Source of the DNA: an uncultured Roseivirga sp.
Lineage (GTDB): Bacteria > Bacteroidota > Bacteroidia > Cytophagales > Cyclobacteriaceae
Direction: 5' to 3'
Assembly: GCA_947493005.1 (NCBI GenBank)
Contig: CANLOY010000007.1
Coordinates: 124,001 to 188,000, forward strand
DNA: 64,000 nt
Below, piece by piece: positions 58,125 through 63,307 of this stretch (positions within the stretch are counted from its first letter, which is position 1; each line of letters begins with the position of its first letter). Both the position numbers and the translations under genes were made by a program. Under the pieces are notes generated by a model. It saw only the letters and a program-made list of their open reading frames with translations. It was not told the origin of the DNA and searched no databases.

Positions 58125-59336
58125 TCAGGAAGTGGCTTTGGCTACATCATCCCAAAAACTAGGATAAGATTTATTGACTACAGAAGGGTCTTCAATGATC
58201 ACTGGCTGATGAGTGCAAAGTGGAGCAAAGGCCATGGCCATCCGGTGGTCTTCATAGGTCTTAATACTTACCTCTGGTTGCCCAGGTTCGTATTTTGATT
58301 TGATTTCCCAAACACCCTCTTCGGTTTCCTTCAGTTTAACATTAATCTTTTTAAGCTCCTTTTTAAGTGCCTTGATACGGTCTGTTTCTTTAATACGAAG
58401 ACTTTCTAAACCTGTCATTTTACAGTCTATGTGTTTGACTCCACATATTACAGCAACAGTTTGAGCAAGGTCAGGACAATCTGAGAAATCAAACTCGACT
58501 TCTTTCTGATGTGGGATTTTCTGAAGCACTACACCATCTTCTTCGAAAGTACTCATGACACCCAATTGATTCATGATCCGCACAATAGCAATATCACCTT
58601 GTAGAGATTTTTGTCTTAGTCCAAGCAGTTTGATTTTGGCTTCTTTGGCTAAGGCTACAAAACTAAACCAATAGCTCGCTCCCGACCAGTCCGATTCTAC
58701 TACATAAGGATATTCTTGATAAGGCTGAGGTTTAATCTCAATAGTATTGTTTGTCCAGGTACTTTTGATACCAAACAACTTCATCATGTCAAGCGTCATT
58801 TGGATATAAGGTCTGCTACCTATTTTCCCTTTTAGTTTAAGAACGAGCCCATTGGGTAGGCTAGGGGCAATCATCAGGAGTGCAGAAATATACTGACTAC
58901 TAACGTCTCCCTTGATGCTTACTTCTTCAGTTTTTTGATTTTTTATTGGAATGACCTGATGAGGAGGGAAACCATCTTCTTTTAGGTGTTTTACTTTTGC
59001 TCCAAGTTGCTTTAGTGCTTTGGTAAGAATTTTAATTGGTCTTTCCTGCATTCGATGAGTTCCTGTGAGTATTCTGTTCTTTGTACCCAAAGCGGCATAG
59101 GCTGTCAAAAAACGCATGGTGGTACCAGCGTCAAGTACATCTAGCGTTTCTTCTTCGCTGGAAAGTAAACGCAGCATAGTTTGCGTATCGCGTGCTTGTG
59201 ATAGGTTGGTGAGTACGGACTTGTTTCCTGAAAGTGCGTTAATAATCAGCGCTCTGTTGCTTTCGCTTTTAGAGGCAACAAGTTTGATTTCAACTTCGTG
59301 CAGAACAGGTGTATGTTTGATTGCTATGGTTTCCAA
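58125..59336 (-). CDS. aroA: 3-phosphoshikimate 1-carboxyvinyltransferase (EPSP synthase)
   Basis: A 403-aa enzyme of the shikimate pathway joining PEP to shikimate-3-phosphate. Substrate-binding motifs KSESNRA (about 20-26), AGTTMRFLTA (about 67-76), SSQYISALLMIAP (about 143-155), ETDRI and the C-terminal YEDHRMAMAFAPL are present. The first lobe deviates from the usual GSKS and NAGTAMR, giving VASKS and DAGTTMR, so it belongs to a divergent branch. Last gene of the aroF-aroB-aroA unit, one base after aroB. Confidence 0.95.
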   Translation of the reverse strand: METIAIKHTPVLHEVEIKLVASKSESNRALIINALSGNKSVLTNLSQARDTQTMLRLLSSEEETLDVLDAGTTMRFLTAYAALGTKNRILTGTHRMQERPIKILTKALKQLGAKVKHLKEDGFPPHQVIPIKNQKTEEVSIKGDVSSQYISALLMIAPSLPNGLVLKLKGKIGSRPYIQMTLDMMKLFGIKSTWTNNTIEIKPQPYQEYPYVVESDWSGASYWFSFVALAKEAKIKLLGLRQKSLQGDIAIVRIMNQLGVMSTFEEDGVVLQKIPHQKEVEFDFSDCPDLAQTVAVICGVKHIDCKMTGLESLRIKETDRIKALKKELKKINVKLKETEEGVWEIKSKYEPGQPEVSIKTYEDHRMAMAFAPLCTHQPVIIEDPSVVNKSYPSFWDDVAKATS

Positions 59337-59337
59337 G

Positions 59338-60372
59338 TCAGCTTTTCAGTTTTAGGTAAAAGAATAAAGAATCCATTACATCTTTTTCATCTACTGCAAT
59401 GTCATAGGTAGCTCTTCCAATTTCATATAGAAGTGAATGGTTAAGGAAGTTATTGACGTTCTTTTTGTCCTGATACATCAGTTTTATTATAGATGTGAAG
59501 TCAGTTTTCTTAATAGTAAGGTCAGGATAAATCCTCAGAATTGTATTACAAATTTCCGTTAGCTGGTCTTCTTCAAGACTTAATAACTTTTTGGACACAT
59601 AGGCTTCACAAATCATTCCTATCGCAATGGCCTCACCGTGTAGAAGATGGTTGTCTGAGGCCAGATAGAAGCTTTCAATAGCATGACCAATAGTGTGTCC
59701 AAAGTTCAGAATCTTTCTGAGTCCTGCTTCTTTTGGGTCCTCTTTGACTACAGCGTTTTTGATCTCTACCGAATGTGCGATAACGGCACTCCAGTTTTTC
59801 TGATTGAGTCCATCAGTGCTGACTTGCGCATAGTAATCTTTGTCTACAATCAGACCATGCTTAACCACTTCAGCAAATCCAGACCTTAACTGATTTTCGG
59901 GAAGTGTTTTCAGAAACACAGGATCTATGAAAACGGCTTCTGGGTCTTTAAAGAAACCCAAGTGATTCTTGAAGCCTTGAAAGTCTATACCAAGCTTACC
60001 GCCTACATTAGCATCTACAGCTGCCAGTAAGGTGGTGGGAATGTTGATGAAATCAATTCCTCGTTTATAGGTTACAGCGCAGAAACCACCCATATCTCCA
60101 ATAACGCCACCTCCCAGGTTTATGAGCAGTGATCTGCGATCAAATCCATTATCGGTTAGTTCTTTCCAAATCAACTGACAAGTTTCTAAAGTCTTATGGA
60201 CTTCTCCTGATCGTATTTTAATAAGGGAGTGTTCTGGAAGGCAATCTTTAACAATGGGGTAGCAATGGGTATAGGTGTTTTCATCCACTAATACAGCTAC
60301 TTTAGTATGACTACTTTCCTTGAAGAAGCCTTTCAGGCTCTTGTCAATATGATCTATGAGAATCTGGCTCAT
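59338..60372 (-). CDS. aroB: 3-dehydroquinate synthase
   Basis: A 344-aa NAD-dependent enzyme turning DAHP into 3-dehydroquinate. The NAD-binding GGGVIGDMGGFCAVTYKRGI and the metal/substrate region PTTLLAAVDANVGGKLGID are present, as are the zinc ligands in FAEVVKHGL, NFGHTIGHAIES and LLHGEAIAIGM. It acts directly on the product of the gene upstream (8-base gap), and aroA follows after one base. Confidence 0.97.
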   Translation of the reverse strand: MSQILIDHIDKSLKGFFKESSHTKVAVLVDENTYTHCYPIVKDCLPEHSLIKIRSGEVHKTLETCQLIWKELTDNGFDRRSLLINLGGGVIGDMGGFCAVTYKRGIDFINIPTTLLAAVDANVGGKLGIDFQGFKNHLGFFKDPEAVFIDPVFLKTLPENQLRSGFAEVVKHGLIVDKDYYAQVSTDGLNQKNWSAVIAHSVEIKNAVVKEDPKEAGLRKILNFGHTIGHAIESFYLASDNHLLHGEAIAIGMICEAYVSKKLLSLEEDQLTEICNTILRIYPDLTIKKTDFTSIIKLMYQDKKNVNNFLNHSLLYEIGRATYDIAVDEKDVMDSLFFYLKLKS

Positions 60373-60380
60373 AATTGAAT

Positions 60381-61463
60381 TTAGTGTTTTCCTTCTTTAA
60401 GCTGAGCTTCCTGAGTTTTAACCGACTCTTCGTGTACAGCAAATAAAAAGCTTTTCATAAACTTTTCAGTCATGTTTTTCTGGACTCCAGACTTAATTCT
60501 AGACTCCATTACATCTTGCCACCTGCTAGGCTGGAATACGGCCAGGTTATGTTTCTGTTTGTATTCACCAATTTGTTTGATAATCTGAAAGCGATCGGCC
60601 AATAGTTCAATAAGTTGTGTGTCTACGAGATCAATCTTCTGCCTGTATTCATCTAGTTCATTGATAGCTTCAGGGTGCTTGTCCAGTGTTTCTCTGAAAC
60701 TCAGGTTTTCATATATGATTTTAAGCATGTCGGGAGTGATCTGCTGCTTGGCATCGCTCCATGCATTATCAGGATCGTGATGAGTTTCAATCATCAAGCC
60801 ATCCAACCCAAAGTTAATCGCCCTTTGACTCACAGAAGCAATGATTTCTCGTGTACCACAAATATGACTTGGGTCGCAGACTACAGAAATACCTGGAAGC
60901 ATCCTTTTTAAGTGAATTGGCATACTCCATTCTGGCTTGTTACGGTATCTTTTTTCGTACGGATCGGAAAAACCTCTATGAATACCTGCTACTTTTTTAA
61001 TGCCCACTTTGTTAAGCCTTTCAATGGCTCCAATCCACAACTGTAGGTCTGGATTAATAGGATTCTTGACCATTACAGGTATGTCAGTGCCTTTTAATGC
61101 TTCGCATATTTCCTGCACTGAAAAAGGGTTTACTGTGGTTCTGGCACCAATCCATAGTACATCAATGTTTGCTTTGAGGGCAGCTTCTACATGAGCAGTA
61201 TTGGCTACCTCAACTGTGACAGGTACATTCAATATGTCTTTGGCATTGTTTATCCATTCCAGTGCTTCAGTACCTATACCTTCGAAAGAGCCTGGTCGGG
61301 TTCTGGGTTTCCAAACACCGGCCCTGAACATTTCTATATTACTTCCTCTAAGCCCTTTGGCTATACTTTCAACTTGTTGAGCGCTTTCTGCGCTGCAAGG
61401 GCCAGCAATTAAAACATGCTCTGATAACCCAAGCCCCCAATCCTGAATGTCTATAATTTCCAT
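60381..61463 (-). CDS. Bifunctional DAHP synthase / chorismate mutase (copy 2, behind the attenuator)
   Basis: A 360-aa fusion. Residues 1-260 are a type I-beta (KDO8P-like) DAHP synthase with AGPCSAES (metal Cys), GVWKPRTRPGSFEG, WIGARTTVNPF, HRGF, CDPSHICG and MIETHHDPDNAWSDAKQQ. Residues about 268-355 are an AroQ chorismate mutase with RQKIDLVDTQLIELLADRF and a C-terminal HEESVKTQ. It makes DAHP from PEP and erythrose-4-phosphate, and prephenate from chorismate; in such fusions the mutase domain also senses prephenate or chorismate. Its transcription is predicted to depend on the Phe/Tyr attenuator at 61473-61602. First gene of the aroB-aroA unit. Confidence 0.95.
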   Translation of the reverse strand: MEIIDIQDWGLGLSEHVLIAGPCSAESAQQVESIAKGLRGSNIEMFRAGVWKPRTRPGSFEGIGTEALEWINNAKDILNVPVTVEVANTAHVEAALKANIDVLWIGARTTVNPFSVQEICEALKGTDIPVMVKNPINPDLQLWIGAIERLNKVGIKKVAGIHRGFSDPYEKRYRNKPEWSMPIHLKRMLPGISVVCDPSHICGTREIIASVSQRAINFGLDGLMIETHHDPDNAWSDAKQQITPDMLKIIYENLSFRETLDKHPEAINELDEYRQKIDLVDTQLIELLADRFQIIKQIGEYKQKHNLAVFQPSRWQDVMESRIKSGVQKNMTEKFMKSFLFAVHEESVKTQEAQLKEGKH

Positions 61464-61472
61464 TTTTTTAAA

Positions 61473-61504
61473 TAAAAAAAGCCCGGTTCAAGTGAACCGG
61501 GCTT
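61473..61504 (-). terminator. Attenuator terminator (3:4 hairpin) before the DAHP synthase gene
   Basis: On the minus strand AAGCCCGGTTC pairs perfectly with GAACCGGGCTT over 11 bp around a 4-base loop, followed by seven Ts. It ends about 10 bases before the ATG at 61463, so it cannot be the simple end of the upstream gene without also silencing the downstream operon. The 5' arm can instead pair with GTGAGCCG in the leader coding region (see the attenuator entry). Confidence 0.93.
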
Positions 61505-61527
61505 ATATAATTGTTAGTTAAATTTCT

Positions 61528-61602
61528 TTACAAGCAGCGGCTCACCCTTATCAGGCCGATAAAGTAAAAAAAGTAAAAAAACACTGCCGCTATTCTTTTC
61601 AT
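61528..61602 (-). CDS. Leader peptide of the aro attenuator
   Basis: A 24-codon frame, ATG at 61602 and TAA at 61528, reading MKRIAAVFFYFFYFIGLIRV followed by SRCL. Codons 8-14 are TTT TTT TAC TTT TTT TAC TTT, five Phe and two Tyr, comparable in style to the E. coli pheL peptide. The peptide has no role by itself; its translation reports Phe-tRNA and Tyr-tRNA charging. Segment 1 of the attenuator immediately precedes the Phe/Tyr codons and segment 2 overlaps the end of the frame. Confidence 0.88.
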   Translation of the reverse strand: MKRIAAVFFYFFYFIGLIRVSRCL

Positions 61603-61606
61603 GCCT

Positions 61607-61636
61607 TAAACTTAGATATCTTCTTGAGTACTCAAA
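61607..61636 (-). promoter_or_regulatory. Candidate promoter with palindrome upstream of the leader peptide
   Basis: On the minus strand TTTG (61633-61636), 18 bases, then TAAGTTTA (61607-61614, one mismatch to TAnnTTTG) end 4 bases before the leader ATG. Between them lies TTGAGTACTCAA (61624-61635), a perfect 12-bp palindrome. If the promoter is real, the leader mRNA is almost leaderless and the operon can be expressed independently of the upstream gene. Confidence 0.4.
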
Positions 61637-61671: not shown

Positions 61672-62211
61672 TTATTTTTCGATCAGCGTAAACGTAGTTG
61701 AGTTGTTGGGTTCATCTTCTATGTTTTCTGAAATCATTAACAGTGCATTTCCTTCCAAGGCTTCTTTACTGGAAATGACAGCACCATGTGGATCACGATT
61801 GTTTTTCAACTCATCAATGGCACCAGCTGTGCTGGTACTCGAAATGAAGGTTATGTGACTGTACTTGCGAAAGAAACGCTGGGTTTCTTTAATAGCCATT
61901 GGGTGAGAGTATATTTTCTTAATTGTATCTAATGAGTTTGGGTGCATGCTCCCCAGGCAAAGGTGAACCGGAAGTTCGAATTCCTGAACAATTTTGAAAC
62001 CGCCTGACTTGATACGTTCAAAATTGTTACTTACAAATCCAGAAGTACTGTTCTTTATCGCAATAAGTGCACGATTAACCCTGCCTTCTTTTAGTGCAGT
62101 AAATACTTCGTCAAAGTTTTTGAAAAAAGTAGGGCTTACATTAGGCAGATACCTTTTCCTGGCAATGTCATGGTAAGTGTTTGCTGGTCCTAAAAGTCCA
62201 AGTTCAGTCAT
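61672..62211 (-). CDS. Prephenate dehydratase-like protein lacking an ACT domain, with degenerate motifs
   Basis: A 179-aa protein covering only a prephenate dehydratase (PDT) domain: GLLGPANTYHDIA, LIAIKNSTSGFV, YSHPMAIKE, ISSTSTAGAIDEL and NNSTTFTLIEK line up with the family order. The usual C-terminal ACT domain that binds Phe is absent. Several positions differ from the consensus: GTYS-type becomes NTYH, IEN becomes IKN, SHPQ becomes SHPM and TRF becomes TTF. It may be a weak enzyme or a non-catalytic partner of the upstream DAHP synthase, whose gene overlaps its start by 8 bases. Confidence 0.8.
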   Translation of the reverse strand: MTELGLLGPANTYHDIARKRYLPNVSPTFFKNFDEVFTALKEGRVNRALIAIKNSTSGFVSNNFERIKSGGFKIVQEFELPVHLCLGSMHPNSLDTIKKIYSHPMAIKETQRFFRKYSHITFISSTSTAGAIDELKNNRDPHGAVISSKEALEGNALLMISENIEDEPNNSTTFTLIEK

Positions 62212-63307
62212 TCGAATTTGTTTGTTTTTCTTCTACTGTATTAAACACCTCAGTTTGCCTTTTCACTGACTGCTGATGTAAAAGTCTTAATAGGTCTACG
62301 ATAAATTCCGGATCCAGATTCATTTGTTTTGCCCAGTCTGGCCTTGACTTGAAAATCTCTTTCCATCTGCTGATCTGAAAAATAGCTACATTATTATCTT
62401 TTTTGAACTCTCCGATTTTTTCAACCAGGTTCATTCTTACCGCAATGGCTTCCAGTAGTTCTCTGTCTGCCTGATCGATTTGTTCACGAATAATCTCAAG
62501 TTGATCCAAATAGCTCTTCTTAGTAAAGCTCGAATCCCGAGGGGTAAGTTTGGATATAACTTCCAAAAGTAGTTGTGGTGTCACCTGTTGGTCTGCATCA
62601 CTCAATGCAATTGAAGGTTGATAGTGAGTTTCAATCATAACCCCATCATAATTCAAGTCCAGAGACCTTTGCGATAGTGCTTCTATTGAGCTGCGAGAAC
62701 CACCAATATGACTGGGGTCGCATAGCAGGGGTAATTCAGGAAATTCACTTTTCAACTCCAAAGGGATTTGCCAGAAAGGTGGGTTTCTATACTTCTTTTG
62801 TTGGTAAGCATGGAACCCTCTGTGAACCGCCCCCAGTTTTGTAATACCAACTTTGGAAAACCGTTCTAAAGCGCCTTTCCAAAGAGATAAATCAGGGTGA
62901 ACAGGGTTTTTGACCAAAACAGGAATATCAACCCCCTGTAGGGCAGAAGCCAATTCACTTACATTAAAAGGGTTTACTGTTGTGCGTGCTCCTATCCAAA
63001 GAATGTCGACTCCGTATTTCAAAGCCAGCTCTACATGCTCTGGAGTAGCCGCCTCCGTTGCGAATCTGAAAGGCTTTTCAGCTTTTAGTTCTTTAACCCA
63101 CTGAAGCGCCTTTTCACCCATGCCTTCAAATGAGCCGGGTCGGGTTCTCGGTTTCCAGATGCCTCCTCTTATAACCTGTACTTTTTCGAGCAAAGGACTA
63201 ATCGTTTGATTGAGTTGTTCCTTCGATTCTACACTACAGGGGCCGGCTATTATCAATGGTTTTTGATATTCACCAATCCAATCTTTCAAACCAGTAATCT
63301 GCATCAA
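62204..63307 (-). CDS. Bifunctional DAHP synthase / chorismate mutase (copy 1)
   Basis: A 367-aa fusion with the same architecture as the 360-aa paralogue at 60381. DAHP synthase domain (1-255): IIAGPCSVES, GGIWKPRTRPGSFEG, WIGARTTVNPF, VKNPVHPDLSLW, HRGF, CDPSHIGGSR and MIETHYQPSIALSDADQQ with all expected metal ligands. AroQ chorismate mutase domain (about 268-350): REQIDQADRELLEAIAVRM and LHQQSVKRQ. It overlaps the dehydratase-like gene by 8 bases. A perfect -7 element lies 26 bases upstream, and no leader peptide is found, so its control differs from that of copy 2. Confidence 0.95.
   Translation of the reverse strand: MMQITGLKDWIGEYQKPLIIAGPCSVESKEQLNQTISPLLEKVQVIRGGIWKPRTRPGSFEGMGEKALQWVKELKAEKPFRFATEAATPEHVELALKYGVDILWIGARTTVNPFNVSELASALQGVDIPVLVKNPVHPDLSLWKGALERFSKVGITKLGAVHRGFHAYQQKKYRNPPFWQIPLELKSEFPELPLLCDPSHIGGSRSSIEALSQRSLDLNYDGVMIETHYQPSIALSDADQQVTPQLLLEVISKLTPRDSSFTKKSYLDQLEIIREQIDQADRELLEAIAVRMNLVEKIGEFKKDNNVAIFQISRWKEIFKSRPDWAKQMNLDPEFIVDLLRLLHQQSVKRQTEVFNTVEEKQTNSND

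Follow-up and report, generated by a model that had tools for sequence, protein, structure and literature searches.

A probable leader-peptide attenuator with mixed Phe and Tyr codons, predicted to act on a leaderless mRNA, upstream of a DAHP synthase gene in Cyclobacteriaceae

We have analysed a stretch of 64,000 nucleotides from the genome of an uncultured Roseivirga sp., to which, at its full length, we refer as the window. On the minus strand of the window, the genes of a DAHP synthase-chorismate mutase fusion, of aroB and of aroA follow one another closely, the coordinates leaving a gap of 8 nt between the fusion gene and aroB and of 1 nt between aroB and aroA; among 39 loci compared, 36 have an aroB match after the gene of the enzyme. 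The fusion gene is preceded by a short frame with a run of Phe and Tyr codons, by segments that can pair in alternative ways, and by a hairpin with a T run, located 10 nt before the ATG of the fusion gene (61463). The positions of these elements are listed in Table 1.

Next to these elements lies a gene for prephenate dehydratase (61672-62211, 179 aa), the stop codon of which is situated 69 nt before the start of the leader frame on the minus strand; the catalytic PDT domain is the only domain that we have found in its product, i.e. there is no ACT (feedback) domain. The prephenate dehydratase gene overlaps with the gene of a second DAHP synthase-chorismate mutase (62204-63307), with 45% identity to the copy that follows the leader, and we have seen no aromatic leader upstream of this second copy. 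A third, more distant DAHP synthase-like gene of the same genome (L003, G000:C3:716017-716679), with 33% identity to the copy that follows the leader, shares its contig region with trpE; the gene that precedes it is, judged by eye, a trpA-like candidate.

Table 1. Positions of the leader elements, the putative promoter elements and the downstream genes in the window.
Feature	Positions	Strand	Basis
Leader peptide ORF, 24 codons, MKRIAAVFFYFFYFIGLIRVSRCL	61528..61602	minus	direct reading and ORF listing
Control codons FFYFFYF, codons 8-14	61561..61581	minus	direct reading and ORF listing
Segment 1, AGCGGC	61586..61591	minus	1:2 duplex test, significant for the set of 16 species but not for the window sequence by itself
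Segment 2, GGGTGAGCCGCTG, partner of segment 1 (through GCCGCT) or of segment 3 (through GGGTGAGCCG)	61535..61547	minus	duplex tests
Segment 3, AAGCCCGGTTCACTT, comprising the 5' arm of the terminator with its loop; pairs with segment 2 in the antiterminator	61490..61504	minus	folding and duplex tests
3:4 intrinsic terminator hairpin, AAGCCCGGTTC/GAACCGGGCTT, 11 pairs, GC-rich	61479..61504	minus	folding and terminator scan
T7 run, where terminated transcripts are expected to end	61474..61480	minus	direct reading
Putative Bacteroidota sigma-A -7 box, TAAGTTTA (5 of 6 specified bases of TAnnTTTG), ending 4 nt before the leader ATG	61607..61614	minus	sequence match
TTG within TTTTG, a putative -33 element, at 18 nt from the -7 box	61633..61635	minus	sequence
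DAHP synthase-chorismate mutase fusion, 360 aa, first gene under the predicted control	60381..61463	minus	Pfam PF00793 and PF01817
aroB, 3-dehydroquinate synthase	59338..60372	minus	TIGR01357 above cut-off
aroA, EPSP synthase	58125..59336	minus	TIGR01356 above cut-off

The leader frame begins with an ATG at 61602-61600 and ends with a TAA stop codon at 61530-61528. Within segment 2, the hexamer GCCGCT that can pair with segment 1 is located at 61541-61536, and the antiterminator is formed by the pairing of GTGAGCCG (61545-61538) with CGGTTCAC (61499-61492). Compared with dinucleotide shuffles, the folding energy is lower by 4.1 SD for the region 61602-61464 and by 6.8 SD for the terminator stretch (61510-61473), with 0/200 shuffles as low in both cases; taken singly, the 1:2 helix in the window does not reach significance, as 14% of 300 shuffles are as strong. 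The original prediction had described a 24-codon frame with FFYFFYF at codons 8-14, a 1:2 stem AGCGGC/GCCGCT, a 2:3 stem, and an 11-bp terminator with seven Ts that is located 10 bases before the ATG of the fusion gene: the frame can be read directly and is found in the ORF listing, both stems are present as described, and all the details of the terminator hold. Seven consecutive Phe/Tyr codons (TWY x 7) occur at three sites in the 4.88-Mb genome, and the reversed control pattern at two. We have rejected the two other matches as leaders: one is a 9-codon frame that is antisense to a coding frame by reading of the sequence (L034), and the other is a 13-codon stop-to-stop frame without an ATG (L035).

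Using the enzyme as the query, we have searched 148 sampled genomes of the family Cyclobacteriaceae, where 147 contain a match and 51, the genome of the window included, contain a copy with at least 58% identity. All 51 of these copies have been examined, and 50 have a Phe/Tyr-run leader, i.e. a frame of at least 19 codons with five to seven aromatic codons in some stretch of seven, starting approximately 139-235 nt upstream; the run, for which the original prediction had proposed an alignment across Cytophagales, is thus conserved at this level of identity. In the one exception (L134, from the draft genome G038, which is 88% complete and 5% contaminated), the F/Y run is present and the frame continues for about 52 codons. 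Nineteen further copies from the family, with at most 53% identity (L138-L156, a part of those listed at this level), have served as an internal control: none has a leader with at least six F/Y codons in seven, the highest count being five in seven, in a TTG frame. The leader also occurs in two further genomes of the family (L194 and L195).

The wider comparison covers 80 named loci, fetched from among the matches listed. In this set, the leader occurs in all eight loci with 59-62% identity (L037-L044), three of which belong to genomes that are already in the family set, and in a Cytophagales MAG with 48% identity (L079), while the other 71, from Bacteroidales, Flavobacteriales, Saprospiraceae and others, have at most three F/Y codons in seven. 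A search across the order (157 genomes from 22 families) has provided 40 upstream regions, two inside the family and 38 outside it; the latter include one clear leader (L178), one doubtful case with six in seven (L167, an AT-rich TTG frame without a terminator) and one region that is too short to read. In the family of L178, referred to as f4, the leader is found in two of 11 genomes (L178 and L197), with one gene copy examined per genome, and it reads YFSFYYFWY, i.e. Phe, Tyr and Trp codons are combined. In L178, L197 and L079, all of them Cytophagales outside the family of the window, this independent-looking leader, YFSFYYFWY, and a terminator are located before a DAHP synthase of the other lineage.

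The terminator and the competing helices have been delimited in 59 leaders (56 distinct), and a hairpin with a T run is present in each of the 59. Over the 56 distinct leaders, 97.8% of the pair cells of the terminator stem are kept, and two-sided changes occur in six of its 12 pairs, a value that 0/500 shuffles reach. When the leaders are aligned with MAFFT, 90.2% pairing is found in the 2:3 helix, but its covariation is not above that of shuffles, perhaps with divergent rows out of register; in place of column covariation, we have used duplex energies calculated for each sequence, in 16 non-redundant leaders with mutual identities below 80%. For the 2:3 duplex, the mean is -17.0 kcal/mol, whereas shuffles give -9.1 and partners combined across species -13.0, and the duplex is significant (p<=0.05) in 16/16 leaders; the 1:2 duplex has a mean of -12.5 kcal/mol, against -8.6 and -8.7, respectively, and is significant (p<=0.05) in nine, with the window's own leader among the seven where it is not significant singly. 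Native pairing is stronger than cross-species pairing for both helices (Wilcoxon, p=3e-5 for 2:3 and p=3e-4 for 1:2). The 1:2 pairing occurs with differing letters, e.g. AGCGGC/GCCGCT in the window, AAGCACC/GGTGCTT in L009, ACAAACC/GGTTTGT in L039 and CAAGGAC/GTCCTTG in L136. As to the compensatory changes that had been proposed for the three stems, they are thus seen as two-sided changes in 3:4, and 1:2 and 2:3 pair better within species than between species, but in 2:3 the column covariation does not exceed that of shuffles.

The spacing of the elements is also conserved. In 59/59 leaders, segment 2 lies 10-17 nt past the final F/Y codon (11 nt in 31 of them, 13 nt in the window), a distance of the size of a ribosome footprint, with which a ribosome stalled on the run would cover segment 1 and leave segment 2 free. 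The distance from the stop codon to the terminator is 13-36 nt. A proposed relation, where leaders that lack the 1:2 helix would have their stop codon nearer to segment 2, is not borne out (Spearman p=0.81).

To our knowledge, the Bacteroidota are a phylum without Shine-Dalgarno initiation, and the start of the leader frame has a feature that is new here and was not part of the original prediction: a promoter box set on the leader ATG. In 48 of the 56 distinct leaders, a match to at least five of the six specified bases of TAnnTTTG ends at a spacing of exactly 4 nt from the leader ATG, and the count rises to 55 if spacings of 4-8 nt are taken together; no such box precedes the leader ATG of L079. 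By comparison, the first ATGs of long ORFs in the window have the box in 0/52 cases at a spacing of 4 nt and in 3/52 at 4-8 nt, and the frequency of matches over the window is 0.9% per position. Further upstream of the leaders, a match occurs in 57 of 112 AT-rich 24-nt windows, i.e. in about 3% per position, a background that is far below 48/56 at one position, though the species are related. Of the 58 leaders with a box (three duplicates included), 53 also have a TTG 18-21 nt upstream of it, most commonly at 19 nt. In Flavobacterium psychrophilum, the box spans positions -12 to -5 of the transcription start (PMC9723704, in part), and therefore a box that ends 4 nt before the ATG would put the first transcribed base at the A of that codon (61602 in the window), which makes the leader mRNA probably leaderless; in the parts of the same article drawn on here, leaderless mRNAs account for 5.5% of the mapped mRNAs of F. 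psychrophilum, no more.

The same box bears on the frame in which the run is read. We have considered a reading in another frame, where leucine codons follow TTG starts, as a by-product of TTTTAC repeats, and we have set it aside because, in all 56 distinct leaders, the run is preceded by an in-frame ATG of the F/Y reading (partly by construction, as our finder preferred ATG) and because the promoter box is placed on that ATG.

The comparison of sequences thus brings out the leader frame, the F/Y run, the pairings, their spacing, the terminator and the promoter box as parts of one arrangement, which very likely constitutes a classical ribosome-mediated transcription attenuator of DAHP synthase-chorismate mutase, aroB and aroA. 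The attenuation of these genes had been proposed in the original prediction, and it is strongly supported by the conserved leader, the F/Y codons and the alternative pairings. For the stalling, the termination in vivo, the transcription start and the tRNA that is sensed, we infer the following course. Transcription would start on the leader ATG or only a few bases from it, and the leader would be translated from a leaderless mRNA directly behind RNA polymerase. If charged tRNA-Phe, and perhaps charged tRNA-Tyr too, is scarce, the ribosome would stall in FFYFFYF and cover segment 1, leaving segment 2, which lies 13 nt past the run, free to pair with segment 3; with 2:3 formed, there would be no terminator, and the three genes would be transcribed. 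If charged tRNAs are plentiful, the ribosome would reach the stop codon and mask segment 2, or the 1:2 helix would re-form; 3:4 would then form, and transcription would end near 61474.

Other explanations account for parts of this arrangement. The hairpin might simply terminate transcription of the upstream gene pair, DAHP synthase and prephenate dehydratase, and have a Phe/Tyr-rich frame next to it by chance: the prephenate dehydratase gene does end only 69 nt before the leader, and our scan shows no other terminator-like site between the two. A match to the window's prephenate dehydratase, however, precedes the enzyme gene in only six of 39 loci (within fetched flanks of 0.9-3 kb), with the leader present regardless; a promoter box is situated between the two, and the antiterminator and the F/Y run are conserved, all of which makes a mere terminator highly improbable. 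That an aromatic-rich, hydrophobic peptide is kept across the family would suit a small functional protein, next to which the hairpin would be incidental, but the length of the frame varies from 19 to about 31 codons, the residues outside the run differ, and the RIGAAY tail, common to many members, coincides with the antiterminator segment; we regard this explanation as very unlikely. Alternative structures alone would also fit a leader RNA that binds a ligand or a protein in the manner of a riboswitch, with no need for translation. We consider such an RNA extremely improbable, as it would leave the F/Y codons and the footprint-sized spacing unexplained, and as a search at the Rfam gathering cut-offs has returned only tRNAs in the window and nothing in 13 related loci. 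Below the cut-offs, the Phe_leader model (RF01859) aligns end to end to the window with 30.4 bits (E 0.0022), against a gathering cut-off of 55 bits, and stands second behind tsr26, an unrelated Staphylococcus aureus sRNA model, with 32.1 bits on the same stretch; we have given this match no weight because it is far below its cut-off and because the unrelated model scores higher.

A closer rival shares the attenuator as described, but takes Phe as the only amino acid that is sensed, with the Tyr codons as tolerated neighbours; this is quite possible, and we would put it somewhat below even chances. In its favour, the Phe codons exceed the Tyr codons, with means of 4.75 and 2.9 per run, and a leader with Phe-Tyr-Phe codons, the aroR of Corynebacterium glutamicum located before the DAHP synthase gene aroF, answers Phe and not Tyr: in the parts of the source drawn on here, transcription rises on Phe limitation and Tyr availability is without effect (PMC11802643; see also PMC4046766). 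Against it, both residues occur in 56/56 runs, with two to four Tyr codons in each, and the operon feeds both branches of the pathway. The claim of the original prediction that the leader senses both end products thus finds support in the constant presence of both codons, while the example of aroR speaks against the part that concerns Tyr (PMC11802643, in part).

Returning to the attenuator itself, we have explored its origin with a quick tree of 76 rows, supported by SH-aLRT only, which took in 22 of the more than 50 attenuated copies. These 22 form one group (support 99), apart from the other copies, and a recent tandem duplication of the enzyme is unsupported. The three f4-type leaders fall on the other DAHP synthase lineage, and therefore the Phe/Tyr leader probably arose twice.

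Leader frames are also found before other amino-acid genes. Upstream of trpE in the genome of the window (L207, G000:C3, -230 to -100), there is a trp leader, MTVTNRYNAWWWHVTELR, with WWW and its own GC-rich terminator; a possible antiterminator is equalled by 10/500 mononucleotide shuffles, and a -7 box is located 7 nt before the ATG. Upstream of hisG (L211, G000:C2, -166 to -100), there is a His-rich leader, MSMNLHIAIRAAHAHHFHHLV, the ATG of which lies 6 nt past a -7 box, and in this region we have found no terminator with a T run. Among 60 genomes searched, a Trp-rich frame lies upstream of 29 of 30 family trpE loci; among 41 genomes searched, a His-rich frame lies upstream of 26 of 31 family hisG loci. 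Attenuation therefore looks like a general mode of control in the family. A promoter box 2-10 nt before the ATG is present in 21/29 trp leaders and 14/26 his leaders, under a lenient choice among in-frame ATGs, and because of these lower and leniently scored counts, the case for a leaderless mRNA is best for the aromatic leader and less strong for the trp and his leaders. In the 1.5 kb upstream of the acetolactate synthase gene, which mostly consist of another gene, we have found nothing convincing as an attenuator.

The attenuators of pheL and trpL are classical, and the aroR transcript of C. glutamicum is known to be leaderless. The novelty that was implied in the original prediction has to be reduced on two counts: a Phe-Tyr-Phe leader before a DAHP synthase gene has already been published for C. 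glutamicum (PMC11802643, PMC4046766, both in part), and leader-peptide attenuation has already been suggested before amino-acid operons of F. psychrophilum (PMC9723704, in part). According to the parts of these articles drawn on here, aroR shares with our leader the consecutive Phe/Tyr codons before DAHP synthase and the attenuation, but it belongs to another phylum and has F-Y-F only, whereas the leader of the window has seven F/Y codons, a chorismate mutase fusion, and aroB and aroA downstream. The structured 5' elements of F. psychrophilum are from the same phylum, and the genes named in those parts of the article include pheA and hisG, not a DAHP synthase unit. With pheL-pheA and pheST of enteric bacteria, the attenuation of which is named in PMC11802643 (in part), our leader has in common the Phe-rich peptide, the alternative hairpins and the terminator with a T run, but those leaders act on other genes, while ours is mixed in Phe and Tyr and probably leaderless. 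Leaderless attenuators have been described for trpL of Sinorhizobium meliloti and for trpL, leuL and ilvL of Streptomyces lividans (PMC7298713, PMC8079986, in part), where the mRNA likewise begins at the leader ATG; these are from other phyla and concern other amino acids, and their start is derived from RNA data, whereas here it is predicted from the promoter box. A survey of Shewanella lists aroF with an 'attenuator sensing tyr-tRNA' (PMC2659441, in part), and, for Bacteroides thetaiotaomicron, short frames that resemble leaders have been noted within long 5' UTRs (PMC7366714, in part). Our literature search, which covered open-licence papers, has found no description of this Cyclobacteriaceae Phe/Tyr attenuator.

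The leader is thus real and conserved and very probably a functional leader-peptide attenuator, as judged from comparison among species; it is ordinary in kind and new in place, with its probable leaderless start as its most interesting trait. If that start is true, the ribosome would bind the nascent RNA at its very first nucleotides and would couple to RNA polymerase at once, which bears on two points of the biology of Bacteroidota, i.e. how tightly transcription and translation are coupled, and how leaderless mRNAs are started. The conservation and the alternative pairing in dozens of species indicate that classical attenuation is probably used in Bacteroidota, where it has been only hinted at in the literature that we have searched. 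A broader proposal, to which we give even chances, joins these points: Cyclobacteriaceae would run their aromatic synthesis, and in many members their trp and his synthesis, through attenuators with mRNAs that start on the leader ATG or right beside it; in addition, two DAHP synthase lineages would each have recruited a Phe/Tyr(/Trp) leader of their own. In the window, the Phe/Tyr leader precedes the entry step that all aromatic branches share, and it belongs to one of the genome's two DAHP synthase-chorismate mutase copies, which suggests a reason why both copies are kept.
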